Positions 1 through 7,874 of a stretch of 28,571 nt of DNA are shown in pieces (position 1 is the stretch's first letter; every line of letters starts with the position of its first letter). This stretch comes from a virus. The translations under genes were made by a program, and so were the position numbers. Location: positions 1 to 28,571 of IMG/VR virus record IMGVR_UViG_3300028829_000416. One strand, given 5' to 3'. The notes under the pieces are model-generated. The model worked only from the letters and a program-made list of their open reading frames with translations. It searched no databases and was not told the DNA's origin.

Positions 1-76
1 ACTAGAATAGGTTTTAGTTTTGGACATGGGTAGTTATACCTATAAAATTTTCTATGTCAAGAGGGAACGACAAAGA

Positions 77-97
77 ATCTAAGAAAAATTCTTAGAT
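77..97. promoter_or_regulatory. Inverted repeat, 9-bp arms
   Basis: ATCTAAGAA (77-85) and TTCTTAGAT (89-97) are perfect reverse complements around AAA. The repeat lies immediately before the first ACTTAAAGT copy at 101. It could be a protein-binding palindrome or a hairpin. No T-run follows, so a terminator is unlikely. Confidence 0.5.
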
Positions 98-100
98 GGT

Positions 101-297
101 ACTTAAAGTGTACTTAAAGTATTATTATTTCTTTATATATATAAGTAATAATAGACTTAAAGTGTACTTTAAGTTACTTTAAGTACTCTAGTTACTTAAA
201 GTTATACTTAATTATACCACATTTTATGTAAATGTCAAGAGAAATCTTTAAGTTTTTACTATTACTTATTGAACAGGTGTTCAATTAATACTTAAAG
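101..297. repeat. Cluster of ACTTAAAGT 9-mers in both orientations
   Basis: Exact copies of ACTTAAAGT lie at 101-109, 112-120, 155-163 and 194-202 on the plus strand. The reverse complement ACTTTAAGT is at 166-174 and 176-184. Partial copies are at 246-253 and 290-297. Several are 10 or 11 bp apart, about one helical turn. The same word recurs before the integrase at 6710-6773. Spacing and clustering suggest binding sites for a regulator or a phage-specific promoter or origin element; function is inferred. A 10-mer, ATGTCAAGAG, also occurs on either side of the cluster (54-63 and 232-241). Confidence 0.7.
268..285. promoter_or_regulatory. 18-bp palindrome, operator-like
   Basis: ATTGAACAGGTGTTCAAT is a perfect palindrome of 8-bp arms around GG. 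Its core, GAAC-N4-GTTC, has the shape of a dimeric repressor site and resembles LexA boxes of Gram-positive bacteria rather than the direct-repeat LexA box of alphaproteobacteria. No second copy was noticed in the window. It sits just upstream of the partial ACTTAAAG copy at 290. Confidence 0.45.
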
Positions 298-317
298 AGT
301 TCTTAACGGCGAGGGTC

Positions 318-343
318 GGGTATTATCTTCGGGTAGAATACCC
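318..343 (+). other. Stable hairpin with UUCG tetraloop
   Basis: GGGTATT (318-324) pairs with AATACCC (337-343). The interior continues with A325-T334, T326-G333 and C327-G332 closing a TTCG loop, with AG bulged at 335-336. C(UUCG)G is one of the most stable RNA tetraloops, so the DNA is probably transcribed rightward here as a structured leader or small RNA. Further short pairings follow at 347-368. No T-run follows, so it is not a standard terminator. Confidence 0.45.
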
Positions 344-562
344 TCTGAGAGGCTGTGAGTGGCTCTCTAAGTAGGCATGTCGTATATTCATGGGGGTCTA
401 CCTACCGTAGGCATGGAGATGGCTCTGTAAGGCTGGATTATGATTAACATTATGTATAGGGATTATGTATATGTCCATAGGTATAACGTATGTGTGGGGG
501 TTAAGGTAGTGGTTCATGTAGTTACCAAGTGTATTTGACCCCCCGCTGTCATTGGGTGTATA

Positions 563-652
563 CGTATACCGGCACCGGGGTGGTGGCCCATGCCCCCCTG
601 CTGTATTCGTATACCGGCACCGGGGTGGTGGCCCATGCCCCCCTGCTGTATT
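563..652. repeat. 45-bp perfect tandem duplication
   Basis: Two identical 45-bp units, 563-607 and 608-652, each begin CGTATACCGGCACCGGGG and end CTGCTGTATT. They are strikingly GC-rich within an AT-rich stretch. The unit length is a multiple of three, so it leaves an open frame on the minus strand, but nothing else supports coding. It could be an iteron, a recombination scar or packaging-related. Confidence 0.9.
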
Positions 653-832
653 CATGGCAATTGCCTTGGGTTTTCTCAGTTAATGTAACAGTTTAAGTTC
701 TAACCTATTGATTTCATTATGTTTTAAACACAATGTAGGATTATAATGTCTACAAAATAGCCGTTTTTCCTTGTGTTTTCAAGGGGTTGTGAGTTGGGGT
801 GAAGTCATGCTCTTTACCCTACCCATAATAAC

Positions 833-1013
833 ATTATGTCTATACATATACCCCCACCCCATTAGGTCAATCATGCTGCCCTATTTATTATGTCTATACA
901 TATGCTCGGATCTGATAGGTAATACATTATGACCTATTTATTATGTCAGTCATTATGACCTATACGACATGAATACTTTATTCCTGTTATGAATATTATT
1001 ATGTCTATACATA
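833..1013. repeat. Thrice-repeated 16-mer with related short repeats
   Basis: ATTATGTCTATACATA occurs exactly at 833-848, 887-902 and 998-1013. Between copies, CTATTTATTATGTC occurs at 881-894 and again at 934-947, and CATTATGACCTAT at 925-937 and 951-963. The copies are 54 and 111 bp apart, close to a 2:1 ratio. Such interspersed direct repeats fit replication iterons or arm-type integrase sites; this is inference. Confidence 0.7.
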
Positions 1014-1234
1014 AAGCAACTATAACTTGCATCAACACAACTTATAGAGTCTCTTTATAGTATAAAAAGAAACCTATACTTTAGTAGTGATTCGTTTTTA
1101 TTTATTGAGAACCATTCGCAACAACACAAAAATAGAATAAAAATAATATTTGTTTTCGTTTGTTTTCAATAACTTACAAGAACCATACTTATTATATGTA
1201 TACTATCTTTTGTTTGTATGCCTATATGGTTTCA

Positions 1235-1460
1235 AGGTTTTTCGGAATGTCGCCGCTAGGGTTTTTCTCTAGGTCTAGGCCCCCGATACTTCCATAGCTA
1301 CGCCTACTATTCGCATCCTGCTCTTGAGGAGTATGGGGAGTGCTATAAGACCAGCGTGGCGATTACATAAAATTCCTGACGGGGTTGTGTGGTGGTGTGG
1401 TGCTGCCCGATAAGAACAGTGGTGTAAGGCCTAGCTTGCTAGGGTGCCGCAACCCCCTAA
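1235..1460. other. GC-richer structured non-coding block
   Basis: This block contrasts with the AT-rich DNA before it and contains short stems such as CCTAG-CTTG-CTAGG (1430-1443) and AGGG/CCCT arms just after it. I looked for tRNA arms (a T-loop GTTCRA motif and CCA end) and did not find a convincing one. It may be a transcribed structured RNA or an attachment or packaging element. A 13-bp inverted repeat, ACTGTC-T-GACAGT, follows at 1504-1516. Confidence 0.25.
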
Positions 1461-1726
1461 GCGTCATATAGATATTTCATGCGTTTGCACTCTATATGTG
1501 TGTACTGTCTGACAGTGCTGCATCTGTGTTTGTCAAGTGATCTAAATTTATATGGTGGTGGTTTCATATTTGCGGTGGACTATGCTGAGATGCAGAAGCC
1601 GCATGGTAAGTAAACCTAACGCTATCCTATCCTGCCAACCAACGTGGGGTGTGATGGTGTTGGTGTTGCTTGCACTGCATACTTATCCTGAGTGTGTGGT
1701 GGATAGCAACACATGGAGTTTACGCT

Positions 1727-2233
1727 ATGAATTTTATCAAAACAGACGAGAAAATCATTGAAACAATCGCCAGTATTGCCAAGCGTGGTGGGTCTTTGCA
1801 AAAAGATATTCATCGTGCTGCCTGTTCTATCTTGAACAGATGGTGTGTGACTGAGGATGTTTCAACTGCAACCAAGCACATGAATATGTTGCTTGATGCG
1901 CTGCCTGTGATGGTTCGTTCCAATGCCTTCAAAGATTGGGGTGTTCATATGGCGGGGCTTGTGTGGTCTGAAGATGATACGTTTGCCTATCATGCCAAGC
2001 GTACTAAGATCACTGTGGAGCAGGTTCAAGCTGCCAAGGCCAAGCCTTTTTGGGAGTTCAAGCCTGAAGCTGCGTACAAGCCCACTGACGCCGATGCCAT
2101 GTTCCTTAGCTTGATTGAGAGCTTGGAACGCAAGGCTAAAAAAGGTGTTGACCCTGACAAGGGTGACAAAATGAGTGACGCACAGGTTGCGTACCTCAAG
2201 CAAGCCTATGCTGCGATGCCAGCATATGCCTGA
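1727..2233 (+). CDS. Phage protein of unknown function, 168 aa
   Basis: First real gene of the rightward set. The start ATG at 1727 was chosen because GGAG (1715-1718) precedes it at good spacing. The open frame extends back to 1670, but that segment has no ribosome site and reads like non-coding sequence. The product is soluble, with a helical N-terminal half and a conserved-looking stretch around residues 107-118 (PFWEFKPEAAYKP) that I associate with small early proteins of other phages. The tail (about 130-155) is rich in Lys and Asp. No catalytic motif is visible. Its place behind the long control region suggests early expression; function is unknown. Confidence 0.8.
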   Translation: MNFIKTDEKIIETIASIAKRGGSLQKDIHRAACSILNRWCVTEDVSTATKHMNMLLDALPVMVRSNAFKDWGVHMAGLVWSEDDTFAYHAKRTKITVEQVQAAKAKPFWEFKPEAAYKPTDADAMFLSLIESLERKAKKGVDPDKGDKMSDAQVAYLKQAYAAMPAYA

Positions 2234-2562: not shown

Positions 2563-2765
2563 TGTTTCGTGATGACTTTCTTTGTCGTCAATGGTTTGAC
2601 CAGTGGACGGCACTAAGCCGACAGTCTCAAGTCTTACGTCAAGACTTGTATCAGCTTTATGCTGATATGATGGGGGCGAAAGAGTGGGAGCATAGTGCTG
2701 ATCGCCGTAGTCATGAAATTAATATCGCATGGGCTGAACACAAAGCCGATAGGATGCTGCAATGA
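2562..2765 (+). CDS. Small unknown protein, 67 aa
   Basis: The start ATG overlaps the preceding stop (TAATG), with GGAGG about 7 bases upstream, and the end overlaps the next start (ATGA). The predicted product is helical and charged, rich in Trp, Gln, Arg and Asp. It has no cysteine pair, membrane segment or catalytic motif. Position and a strong ribosome site make it real; function is unknown. Confidence 0.7.
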   Translation: MFRDDFLCRQWFDQWTALSRQSQVLRQDLYQLYADMMGAKEWEHSADRRSHEINIAWAEHKADRMLQ

Positions 2766-3154
2766 TCTGGAATGACGCAAAGGTTAAAGAAATGACAGAC
2801 CTAAAATCATTAGGGTTGTCTACTGCTGAGGCTGCAAAGCGGATGGGGTGTCCTGTCAATGCTCTCTATGGGAAGCTAAGACGTATCAGACAGGGCAGCT
2901 TAACACACACCAAACCTGCCAATGGTAAGACCGAGAGGTTTAGCTCAAAGGCAGTGGGTAAGTCACCTCGTGCTGTCACCGAGACTTACAAAGTATTTAT
3001 CGTTACTAATGTAGATACTAATGTAAAGTTTAAACTTGCAGGGATGGGGCATGAGTTGCCTGATAAAACCCTCAAGTCTACAATCATTGGTGAAATACGC
3101 CGTAAGTTTCACAAGAAACTTAAACAGACTTTTGAGTATGAAAGGGTAATGTAG
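2762..3154 (+). CDS. GcrA-like helix-turn-helix protein, 130 aa
   Basis: Residues 1-43 follow the pattern of the N-terminal domain of GcrA: W near the start, then GLSTAEAAKRMGCPVNALYGKLRRI, matching a GLS..EIA..LG....V..K..R layout. GcrA is an alphaproteobacterial cell-cycle regulator that binds DNA and sigma-70 RNA polymerase at methylated GANTC promoters. The rest (about 45-130) is basic and does not look like the usual GcrA linker and C-terminus, so the protein may be a DNA-binding adaptor using only the HTH part. It overlaps both neighbours (ATGA before, TAGTG after). It may redirect host or phage promoters; this is inference. A Hin- or resolvase-type HTH is the alternative. Confidence 0.55.
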   Translation: MIWNDAKVKEMTDLKSLGLSTAEAAKRMGCPVNALYGKLRRIRQGSLTHTKPANGKTERFSSKAVGKSPRAVTETYKVFIVTNVDTNVKFKLAGMGHELPDKTLKSTIIGEIRRKFHKKLKQTFEYERVM

Positions 3155-4052: not shown

Positions 4053-5693
4053 ATGCCATATGAAATAGTGATGGTAGACCCTGAACTTGCAAAGCAAACT
4101 AACTCTTGTGTTGGACGTAGTATCACTGACAACAGTGACTACCTTGTTGATATGTACATTGAAAGGTGGAAGCCTTACCCTGTCAAGCAGACTGACGAGA
4201 TACACAATGGGTGTAGTATTGTCGGTGGTTTTATCACGATTGCTGACAGCAAGGTTCGTGTCATGTTTGGTGTAACACCACGTGACAATGGGTTCATTGT
4301 TCGTAGGGTTGCTGACCTACACCCTACTGATGTGGTGCTGCAAAAGTTTGGTTCCTTTGAGGATGACAGTGCCTTCTTCCAAGATGATACCTTTGTCACT
4401 TGGCTTAGGAATTGTCTTCTCAAGTCCGACATGGCAGACCAAGAACCTGTTGATCAGAACTGGTTGTTACGTCTACGTGCATTGCAGCCTATTCGTTCCA
4501 AGATTGCACATGGTAAGATCAGTCTGTATCAGACCCGTAAGGATGCTGACAATGACAGGCATGTAGCTATGAAGGCTGGTCGTGCATTGAAGTATATCTT
4601 TCCTGAGCTTAATGACAGTGACATTGAGGTACTTGGTGATGCCTTCCGTGAGAAGTTCAGCTTGCGTACTTTTAAGCTCAAGACAGGTATATCACCTGAT
4701 GACTTCACTCATGCCTACTCACACAATCAGGCAGACATGGACAATCCACGTACCACCTGTACTAGAAAGGCTATGATCCATTCTTGTATGCGGTACGAGT
4801 TTGAGAGACTTGAGGTTCACCCTTGCTCTGTCTATGGCAGTGGTGACTTCAAGATCGCTTGGCTTGAGACTGACAGTGGCCTCATTGCTGGTCGTGTGGT
4901 GGTCCGTACATCACACAAGTCTAGACCTCAAGCTGGCCCTATCTATGGTGTCTGTGAAAATTCTTTGAATCAGTTGCAAGATTGGCTTGACAGTATCAAT
5001 GCAGTAGGGTATGACAGTGGATCATCTTGGATAGGTGCAAAGGTATTGGCTGTACCTCACGATGACAATGGTGCATACATAGGGCCGTACCTAGACGTAA
5101 CGCCCCAACGTATGACTGCATCTGATGACGGTAAGTATCTCATTATTGATGACTGTGGTGAGGTAGATGCCAGTACATACCAAGGCATACTCAATGGCTG
5201 TTATACAAATTGTTCTGGGTGTGGTGATGGTCTCAGTGAAGATGATTACTACTACTCAGAGTATAATGACGAGCATTACTGTGAGTGTTGTTATAACAAT
5301 GAGCATACTTACTGCGAAGTTACAGGTGACATGGTACACAACTCTGAGCTTGTTCAGGTATGGTACAGCAGCAGGTGGGGTATACAGTCAGAGATGGTAT
5401 CTGAGTGTGACCGTGACAACAACTATGTTGAGTGTACTGATGGTAAGCATTGGCCTGATGATCAAGTAACATACTGTCAGTCTGAAGAGGTGTGGATATC
5501 ACCTGTAGACATGGAAAATAATTACTTCCAATCAGATTGGGACGGTGAGTTATATAACAATGGTGTCATGTGTACCACTGAGGATGGTCATAATGTAGCA
5601 GAAGATGAGATTATTGCTAGTAATGATACTTGGGAGAAGACCCCTGAAGGTGTCTGGATAAAAGTAGAAGAGGAAGAAGAATGTATAGCTTAA
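4053..5693 (+). CDS. Large Cys-rich unknown protein, 546 aa
   Basis: Strong ribosome site (TAGGAGA) before ATG 4053. The N-terminal two thirds has no motif I can name; residues 235-300 have a conserved look (C..KAMIHSCMRYEF, HPCSVYGSGD, GLIAGRVVVR). The C-terminal part carries paired cysteines: C387-x2-C390 and C410-x2-C413, then C421, C452, C461, C475 and C507. This fits one or more zinc-ribbon or treble-clef knuckles. The protein ends in a very acidic tail. The C-terminal third is also rich in Asp, Glu, Asn and Tyr. It overlaps the metallopeptidase gene by 13 bases, so the two are probably made together. Function unknown. Confidence 0.75.
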   Translation: MPYEIVMVDPELAKQTNSCVGRSITDNSDYLVDMYIERWKPYPVKQTDEIHNGCSIVGGFITIADSKVRVMFGVTPRDNGFIVRRVADLHPTDVVLQKFGSFEDDSAFFQDDTFVTWLRNCLLKSDMADQEPVDQNWLLRLRALQPIRSKIAHGKISLYQTRKDADNDRHVAMKAGRALKYIFPELNDSDIEVLGDAFREKFSLRTFKLKTGISPDDFTHAYSHNQADMDNPRTTCTRKAMIHSCMRYEFERLEVHPCSVYGSGDFKIAWLETDSGLIAGRVVVRTSHKSRPQAGPIYGVCENSLNQLQDWLDSINAVGYDSGSSWIGAKVLAVPHDDNGAYIGPYLDVTPQRMTASDDGKYLIIDDCGEVDASTYQGILNGCYTNCSGCGDGLSEDDYYYSEYNDEHYCECCYNNEHTYCEVTGDMVHNSELVQVWYSSRWGIQSEMVSECDRDNNYVECTDGKHWPDDQVTYCQSEEVWISPVDMENNYFQSDWDGELYNNGVMCTTEDGHNVAEDEIIASNDTWEKTPEGVWIKVEEEEECIA

Positions 5694-6684: not shown

Positions 6685-6773
6685 TTGACCCTAGTTCAAA
6701 CTGAGTATAACTTAAGGTACTTAAGGTACTTACTTAAAGTTTTTATTATTCTTAAAATAATAATACTTAAAGT
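6685..6773 (+). promoter_or_regulatory. Integrase control region with ACTTAAAGT/ACTTAAGGT repeats
   Basis: ACTTAAGGT is tandem at 6710-6718 and 6719-6727. ACTTAAAGT at 6732-6740 and 6765-6773 brackets a hairpin, TTATTATT (6743-6750) with AATAATAA (6756-6763). The left end of the window has the same layout: ACTTAAAGT at 112-120 and 155-163 around ATTATTA...TAATAAT. TTGACC (6685-6690) and TATAAC (6706-6711) may be a sigma-70-type promoter, but the 15-bp spacer is short. The region ends 16 bases before the integrase start, whose ribosome site is GAAAGG. Confidence 0.6.
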
Positions 6774-6788
6774 ATACGAAAGGTAAAC

Positions 6789-7874
6789 ATGAAGTATACA
6801 CATAAGACAAAACGAAAGGATGGTGGTACGAGCTGGATGTTCTTGCCACCTGATGATGCAGCTAGAGCTGGTGTTGTGTCTACCATCACATTCAGAGATG
6901 GACGTACAGCTAGGCATGAGATACCAAAGTTAATCGCTTTGATTGATAGATTTAGAAGGGGTGAGGTAGTAGTGGGTAGGTGTGGACCTAGCTCTACTCT
7001 AAGCCAGCTACTCACCTTTTACCTTAACACAAAGCACTTCAATTCTTTGTCGTTCAATACACAAAAGAACTACGAGTACAATCTCAAAGCTATCTGTGCT
7101 GGTACTGTGTTCAATAAAACTATTGGCAATATGCCTCTTGACAGGTTGAACACACACATCTGTACTGAAATGTATGACCAGTGGGAAGTAGACGTAAGCA
7201 CAGACCATGCAAATCAATATGCAAGGTTGTTCTCTGTTCTTATCAATCACTGCATCTCAATGGAGTTGATTATGTATAATCCCATGAAGAACGTGAAGAA
7301 GCGTAGCCACACACCACGGTCAGTTGTCTGGACTAACGAGCAGGTAGAGCTATTCTTAGACACAGCGTTCAGCCAATACAAATGGCGTAACGTAGGCTTG
7401 ATTGTTCTGTTTGCATACGAGTGGGGTCAACGTCCTGTAGACATACGCAACCTTACATGGAACAGCATTGACTTCACTAAGAAGACTGCAACTATTACCC
7501 AAACTAAACGTGGTGCTACCGTTGAGCTACCCATTGATGATCGTCTAATGGAAATGCTTGAGCAGCAGGAGACTGATTGGGGTTGGCAAGAGTATGTAGT
7601 ACCATGCCAGAGAGCCTCAGACAACGCTTACAGACCACTCTCTGTAGTCCAGATGAACTACCTAGTTGGTGAGGTCAAGGAAGCTTGTGGCCTACCCTCA
7701 GACTTACGTGTAGGTGATCTAAGAAAGACAGCTATAGTTGAGATGATCAAAGGTGGGGCTGAAGCTATGCAGGTTATGTCTGTGACAGGTCACAAGAATA
7801 TCTCGTCACTCAACCCATACCTCAAGCACAATCTTGAAACAGCAATAGAAGCATTGGATAGGAGAAAGAGGTGA
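6789..7874 (+). CDS. int: Tyrosine recombinase / phage integrase, 361 aa
   Basis: A site-specific recombinase that would insert and excise the phage genome. The N-terminal part (about 1-60) is a basic arm-binding-like region. Residues 66-165 form a SAM-like core-binding domain. The catalytic domain shows R215 (GQRPVDIRNLTW), K240 in the beta hairpin, R312 (GDLRKTA), H335 (TGHKN) and nucleophile Y344 (NPYLKHN). The box II residue three before R312, usually His, is Gly309, a tolerated but notable change. The length is usual for phage integrases. The repeat-rich control region stands upstream; GTGA at the end couples it to the next small gene. No tRNA or attP core was identified in the window. 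Confidence 0.9.
   Translation: MKYTHKTKRKDGGTSWMFLPPDDAARAGVVSTITFRDGRTARHEIPKLIALIDRFRRGEVVVGRCGPSSTLSQLLTFYLNTKHFNSLSFNTQKNYEYNLKAICAGTVFNKTIGNMPLDRLNTHICTEMYDQWEVDVSTDHANQYARLFSVLINHCISMELIMYNPMKNVKKRSHTPRSVVWTNEQVELFLDTAFSQYKWRNVGLIVLFAYEWGQRPVDIRNLTWNSIDFTKKTATITQTKRGATVELPIDDRLMEMLEQQETDWGWQEYVVPCQRASDNAYRPLSVVQMNYLVGEVKEACGLPSDLRVGDLRKTAIVEMIKGGAEAMQVMSVTGHKNISSLNPYLKHNLETAIEALDRRKR

Follow-up and report, generated by a model that had tools for sequence, protein, structure and literature searches.

The first 1.7 kb of the phage contig analysed here appear, from their position and from comparison with relatives, to form a bidirectional control region in an HMO-2011-type marine podovirus, located between a leftward late operon and the rightward early and replication genes. 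The window, i.e. the whole stretch that was analysed, is the entire IMG/VR record IMGVR_UViG_3300028829_000416 (28,571 bases). Our joint reading, which we consider probable, is that it holds a complete divergent control region with an operator shared by the late genes and the integrase and, on the early side, a leader RNA that would control translation. Comparison with relatives shows that the region lies between divergent genes, that its promoters are conserved, that the array is present at two sites and that the RNA is structured; the regulator, the early promoter and an effect of the RNA on translation are inferred. The initial annotation had offered four options (origin, packaging site, attachment site or divergent promoter region). 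The last one was right, and the structured RNA found here was absent from that list.

Extent and coding content of the divergent region

Three relatives (L004, L005 and L006), retrieved via the first early gene, match positions 1-1726 at ~88-93% identity and extend colinearly 7.7-8.3 kb to the left of the window, including the whole first late gene. The left end of the contig is therefore not an assembly artefact, one of the two findings that had been named as refuting the initial description. In L004 and L005, the left extension carries minus-strand structural genes, including the terminase and portal region; in the relatives, the minus-strand structural genes point leftward and the early genes rightward. 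Alignment with the three relatives shows that the complete divergent intergenic region spans 29-1726 and is non-coding. Positions 1-28 (minus strand) are the first codons (MSKTKTYSS...) of the first leftward structural/late gene, with its ATG at 28-26.

Hence, the description of 1-1726 as gene-free holds for 29-1726 but not for these first 28 positions. For the seven small ORFs of 29-1726, PHROG matches did not go below E 0.04, and the conservation with the three relatives is of a non-coding type, with indels. A hidden conserved protein, which had been named as the other finding that would overturn this description, is rejected on these two grounds. The divergent region exceeds the next longest gap of the window ~9-fold; other intergenic gaps measure 197, 172, 127, 58 and 41 nt. 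The claim that all other genes overlap or nearly so was therefore too strong, although none of these gaps approaches 1.7 kb. Searches of the window detected neither tRNA nor known RNA families, and no DNA-level similarity to annotated phages was found.

Late promoters

We fetched 80 IMG/VR loci harboring the first late gene and compared 71 distinct sequences upstream of it, taken from relatives, from isolates and from the window itself. Two sigma-70 type promoters, matching TTGACA-N15-19-TATAAT and kept among relatives, point towards the late gene. P1 (211-238, minus strand) has the sequence TTGACA-N16-TATAAT, identical to the consensus at 12/12 positions. Such a promoter, located 60-330 nt upstream of the first late gene, was found at 10/12 or more in 69 of the 71 upstream sequences (mostly 11 or 12/12), against 17 for shuffled sequences. 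P2 (33-60, minus strand; TTGACA at 60-55, N16, TATAAC at 38-33) is located at the gene start, where a promoter of this type is found in 63 of the 71 sequences (shuffles, 24). Since P2 ends ~5 nt before the ATG, a late message transcribed from it may be, and on this spacing probably is, leaderless. In the leftward direction, these two host-type promoters would drive the structural operon.

In CRP-1, CRP-2, CRP-207, CRP-345 and HMO-2011 (L017, L020, L021, L013 and L103), the annotated start of the late gene overlaps a TTGACA-N16-TAnAAC promoter; the true start codon may therefore lie downstream.

A box array shared with the integrase

An array of six perfect ACTTWAAGT boxes that flank an AT-rich centre (101-202; starts at 101, 112, 155, 166, 176 and 194, i.e. 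steps of 11, 43, 11, 10 and 18 bp) sits between P1 and P2. Its position is conserved in the clade, and the late-promoter box block is the most widely shared block of the divergent region. In the window, perfect boxes are confined to two places, the promoters of the late operon and of the integrase. The second array (6710-6773; ACTTWAAGT/ACTTAAGGT), which also has an AT-rich centre, ends 15 nt before the start codon of a tyrosine integrase (6789-7874, plus strand). It consists of perfect boxes within 6732-6773 and near-perfect ones at 6710 and 6719, with steps of 9, 13 and 33 bp. Most of the integrase-holding loci of relatives also carry a box cluster beside the integrase start, and in several loci there is exactly one further cluster, located at the late promoter. 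This two-site layout, kept in relatives, suggests that the late promoters and the integrase share a regulator.

Furthermore, a tRNA-Arg gene lies between the box array and the integrase in L110 and L133 and is likely to be the attachment site there. An attachment site within 1-1726, as had been envisaged, finds no support, the integrase being 5 kb away with its own array and the tRNA-Arg being beside that array in two relatives. The first candidate for binding the boxes is an early HTH protein (2762-3154, plus strand) that matches GcrA and the excisionase family TIGR01764 below threshold.

By analogy with Apl of phage 186, the boxes could be bound by an excisionase that doubles as a regulator, instead of serving a dedicated repressor or activator, a serious possibility that we nevertheless lean against. 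Apl binds arrays of sites 10-11 bp apart at att and at early promoters (PMC7498355). As for Apl and for Cox of phage P2, the boxes described here are mostly about one helical turn apart (steps of mostly 9-13 bp) and found both at a promoter region and at an integrase/att region; the tRNA-Arg genes of L110 and L133 and the weak excisionase-family match of the early HTH protein point the same way. However, Apl sites are direct repeats, unlike the palindromic ACTTWAAGT, no attachment core was identified, and degenerate boxes are found in CRP-9 and CRP-13, which have no annotated integrase in the sequence parts examined. In addition, the binder is only a candidate here and the promoters drive late structural genes, and we do not claim membership in the Apl/Cox class. 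In the reading that we prefer, the array would be the operator of a regulator that also binds before the integrase, and late genes and integration would be controlled together.

Other repeats and element C

Repeats are abundant in the divergent region, with 79 repeated 10-mers against 3.0 in dinucleotide shuffles (0/200 shuffles). The excess of 10-mers having an inverted copy is weaker (31 against 9.4; 1/200 shuffles), and short perfect palindromes are not enriched over the same shuffles. The proposal that at least five types of repeats or palindromes occur here was borne out: the real types include the ACTTWAAGT array, TTGAACAGGTGTTCAA, a 45-bp tandem duplication, the ATTATGTCTATACATA repeats and GTATACGTATAC. 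The palindrome TTGAACAGGTGTTCAA (269-284) is operator-like, its arms being kept in L004 and L005 while its centre changes. Three copies of the near-palindromic ATTATGTCTATACATA repeat, also operator-like, are located at 827-1013. Other operator-like palindromes, repeated copies of TGTGATCACA, were observed in the divergent region of L026, L064, L067, L071, L075 and others and were not noticed in the window.

The tandem duplication (557-646) concerns the right half of a conserved, single-copy cis element of ~80 bp that we call element C (517-598, plus strand; TGTAGTTAC..CTGTCATTG..TATACGTA..TGGCCCATGCCCCCC); L004, L005 and L006 have only one copy of this half. The general pattern of the element is TGTGGTTAAC..CTGTCATTG..TATAYACGTA..CCCCC..TGGCCCATGCCCCC. 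It is present in isolates, in a diverged form in HMO-2011. The core pattern has a single match in each of 29 viral contigs, and in 28 of them it precedes the late gene by 329-599 nt, with the same orientation, the 29th being a short fetched piece on which the late gene was not found. Element C does not qualify as a sigma-70 promoter, since its plus strand is devoid of conserved hexamers, nor as an RNA hairpin, since no consistent pairing was seen by eye and its spacing is fixed. This fixed spacing and the lack of pairing favor protein-binding DNA or a promoter, and its place in one subgroup, close to where the structured leader would begin (see below), makes element C attractive as a possible rightward early promoter. 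Another, weak candidate for this promoter is TCAACA-N18-TATAGT (1032-1061, plus strand; 9/12), in a region conserved among four relatives.

These elements could also be viewed as parts of a replication origin, in which initiator and unwinding sites would be provided by the box array and its AT-rich centre, by element C or by both, and the RNA would be a possible primer precursor. We regard this as rather unlikely. It would account for iteron-like boxes around AT-rich DNA and for the presence of element C once per contig. Moreover, the GC-skew check proposed initially gave, for HMO-2011, a cumulative minimum that falls in the divergent region and a maximum at the convergent junction; however, the skew switches exactly where gene orientation switches and is hence not an independent indication. 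An array of this kind is found before the integrase as well, and none of the window genes scanned was recognised as coding for an initiator protein. A control region with an operator remains the reading that we favor for these elements.

A large structured RNA, a probable leader, precedes the first early gene

The right part of the divergent region (1240-1726, plus strand; approximate 5' boundary) encodes a large structured RNA, probably the 5' leader of the first early gene. This RNA is at least 300 nt and probably ~500 nt long, and ends at the start codon of that gene. Leaders were compared among 27 viral contigs fetched for their relative of the early gene, the closer ones sharing conserved blocks and helices. 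In one subgroup, element C lies only 448-485 nt from the first early gene; the structured leader therefore begins about there.

Two subdomains show compensatory changes in their helices beyond both shuffled and slid controls. The 5' subdomain (1430-1529, plus strand) contains helices 1430-1434/1439-1443, 1487-1492/1524-1529 and 1502-1507/1513-1518. In the alignment of 1370-1560 (17 sequences), 96% of the cells of its 17 pairs are paired and 13/17 pairs are changed on both sides, four of five measures being reached by 0/500 shuffles. The 3' subdomain (1605-1726, plus strand) contains helices 1618-1630/1649-1661, 1663-1669/1706-1712 and 1673-1683/1691-1701. Its 31 pairs (alignment of 1605-1729, 14 sequences) have 92% paired cells, against 24-49% for slid versions, and 19/31 are changed on both sides; 0/500 shuffles reached any of the five measures. 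Together, the two subdomains have 32 pairs with changes on both sides, and the covariation of the slid controls is near zero. Because the helices were drawn from the same sequences as those tested, some excess over slid controls is expected, and it is these double changes that carry most of the weight. Many pairs are G-U, one of them being invariant (columns 77-97 of A3, 14/14); such conserved pairs are easier to reconcile with a plus-strand RNA than with a DNA cruciform.

A covariance model of the 3' domain scored 82-130 bits before the early gene in 21 rows, which include some contigs fetched twice, and reached such a level nowhere else. Used without filters on 11 loci of other subgroups, it gave five best hits of 16.6-22.7 bits, all of them on the sense strand and within ~35 nt upstream of the first early gene, a placement with an estimated chance of ~1e-10 if positions are independent. 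Moreover, the sense strand of the leader has a z-score below -2 against shuffles in 23/24 genomes, including HMO-2011 and CRP-2, compared with 7/24 for coding sequence. Column-shuffle z-scores were rejected as a proof of structure in every subgroup, since some neighbouring AT-rich stretches also score low; claims for the other subgroups therefore rest mainly on model hits and single-sequence stability. No Rfam family matches the leader RNA, whether GOLLD, ROOL or any other curated covariance model. It is thus a structured RNA family absent from Rfam, and no comparable leader RNA was found in the literature searched, from which most subscription papers were left out.

The 3' domain ends ~3 nt before the Shine-Dalgarno sequence (GGAG, 1715-1718), which lies inside a conserved block, and in 14 sequences the distance from the leader to the start codon hardly varies. 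A probable closing helix (1610-1615/1718-1723, plus strand) reaches into the GGAG and is predicted to pair part of the Shine-Dalgarno sequence and the bases that follow with a segment ~105 nt upstream. Its support is modest, the energy of native pairs being -8.65 kcal/mol against -7.74 kcal/mol for swapped ones (fraction 0.047). Since the 3' domain adjoins the Shine-Dalgarno sequence and the closing helix can pair part of it, translational control is suggested, and the most likely role of the leader, as far as can be inferred from sequence comparison, is to control translation of the first early gene. Rightward, the early transcript would carry the leader RNA, continuous with the 5' UTR of this gene, and the leader would set its translation in response to an RNA-binding protein, the state of the ribosome or a ligand. 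So long and elaborate a leader is unusual for simple translational control, which counts against this role.

The size of the RNA, its elaborate structure and its location in a phage would also suit a non-coding RNA that is independent of the early gene downstream, comparable to GOLLD and ROOL. There is precedent for this in GOLLD and ROOL, large phage RNAs of unknown function (PMC12286853), which, like the RNA described here, are structured and show covariation. However, the near-constant distance to the start codon and the location of the Shine-Dalgarno sequence inside a conserved block make such an independence unlikely. High-scoring model hits lie solely before the first early gene and no terminator-like site was found between the RNA and this gene; in addition, the RNA differs from GOLLD and ROOL in having no Rfam match, in being fixed directly before a gene and in belonging to a window devoid of tRNA. 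We therefore retain a leader that most likely acts on translation.

Packaging and genome ends

That the region is a packaging initiation site or a physical genome end is very improbable. Contig ends are in excess here (43/80 within ~2 kb upstream of the late gene, against 2 within 2 kb downstream), but they are scattered from 5 to 1939 nt rather than stacked, near-complete relatives circularize at different points, several of them within this region, and the predicted pac site of PhiM6, a relative, is near terL, ~1.5 kb from the terminase gene (PMC6256558). The packaging site envisaged initially is therefore unsupported, and a fixed genome end is rejected by the circle closures and the scattered ends. 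The excess of contig ends in L023-L102 probably results from assembly breakage in repetitive, variable DNA.

Relationship with HMO-2011-type phages

The divergent late and replication modules of HMO-2011-type phages (HMO-2011, CRP-1, CRP-2, CRP-9, CRP-13 and others), with structural and replication genes on opposite strands, are also found here. Furthermore, these phages share with the window a homologous first late gene, P1/P2 promoters and element C. Since the window ends before terL, membership of the packaging and structural module was judged via the close relative L005, whose TerL is 66-77% identical to those of HMO-2011, CRP-1, CRP-2, CRP-9, CRP-13, CRP-207, CRP-345 and CRP-603. In contrast to these isolates, the best phage match of the window DNA polymerase is that of CRP-6 (56%), the CXXCXGXG motif (partial DnaJ domain) of HMO-2011-type polymerases was not seen in its translation, and the leader RNA model has no match in the isolates. 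Given its CRP-6-like polymerase, the phage belongs to the HMO-2011 type for its structural half only.

The divergent region is ~960-1480 nt long in the isolates CRP-9, CRP-13, CRP-2 and CRP-207, and that of HMO-2011 is largely gene-free, with few annotated ORFs. No description of it was found in the HMO-2011-type phage literature examined. The search for prophages in sequenced bacteria returned one phage contig only, in a Blastopirellula metagenome bin: L152 (NVWB01000161), binned as a Blastopirellula genome, carries an HMO-2011-type late gene and ends inside the divergent region.

Other genes of the window deserve mention. A fragment resembling Na/Pi cotransporters (PF02690; 8129-8578), located between the integrase gene and thyX, is a possible auxiliary metabolic gene. 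The early gene at 4053-5693 encodes a protein of 546 aa for which PHROG, Pfam and NCBIfam all gave no match.

The first early gene and its relatives in other phages

The gene that follows the leader (1727-2233, plus strand) encodes a 168-aa protein of the phrog_1448 family, of unknown function. Its AlphaFold model (mean pLDDT 84) is mostly helical and has no significant match among solved structures, only uncharacterised phage proteins matching it. Relatives are encoded by T7-like phages of Rhizobium, Paracoccus, Caulobacter, Acinetobacter and Pseudomonas, in which the homologous gene mostly comes first among the early genes, as here, and follows a long stretch without genes. This is the case in ParMal1, Kurepalu-1, Cd1 and three Rhizobium phages, whereas a small ORF precedes the gene in Acinetobacter phage Ab-P-7. 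The leader RNA model did not match any of the three T7-like leaders tested.

In the Rhizobium T7-like phages (L189, L193 and L194), a gene-free leader of ~600 nt that is not in Rfam precedes the phrog_1448 gene. These leaders are more stable than shuffles, show compensatory changes by eye and appear strongly structured, in a manner of their own. A tentative, somewhat speculative extension is that a new class of large leader RNAs is tied to this first early gene across unrelated lineages (HMO-2011-type podoviruses, T7-like phages of Rhizobium and perhaps of Caulobacter) and would serve, as infection begins, as a sensor or a host-takeover RNA.

The late promoters, the operator shared with the integrase and element C are testable cis elements. 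A structured RNA family outside Rfam precedes an early gene that has relatives in many proteobacterial phages. If this RNA is a sensor or host-takeover RNA, it would add a new layer of control at the first step of infection.
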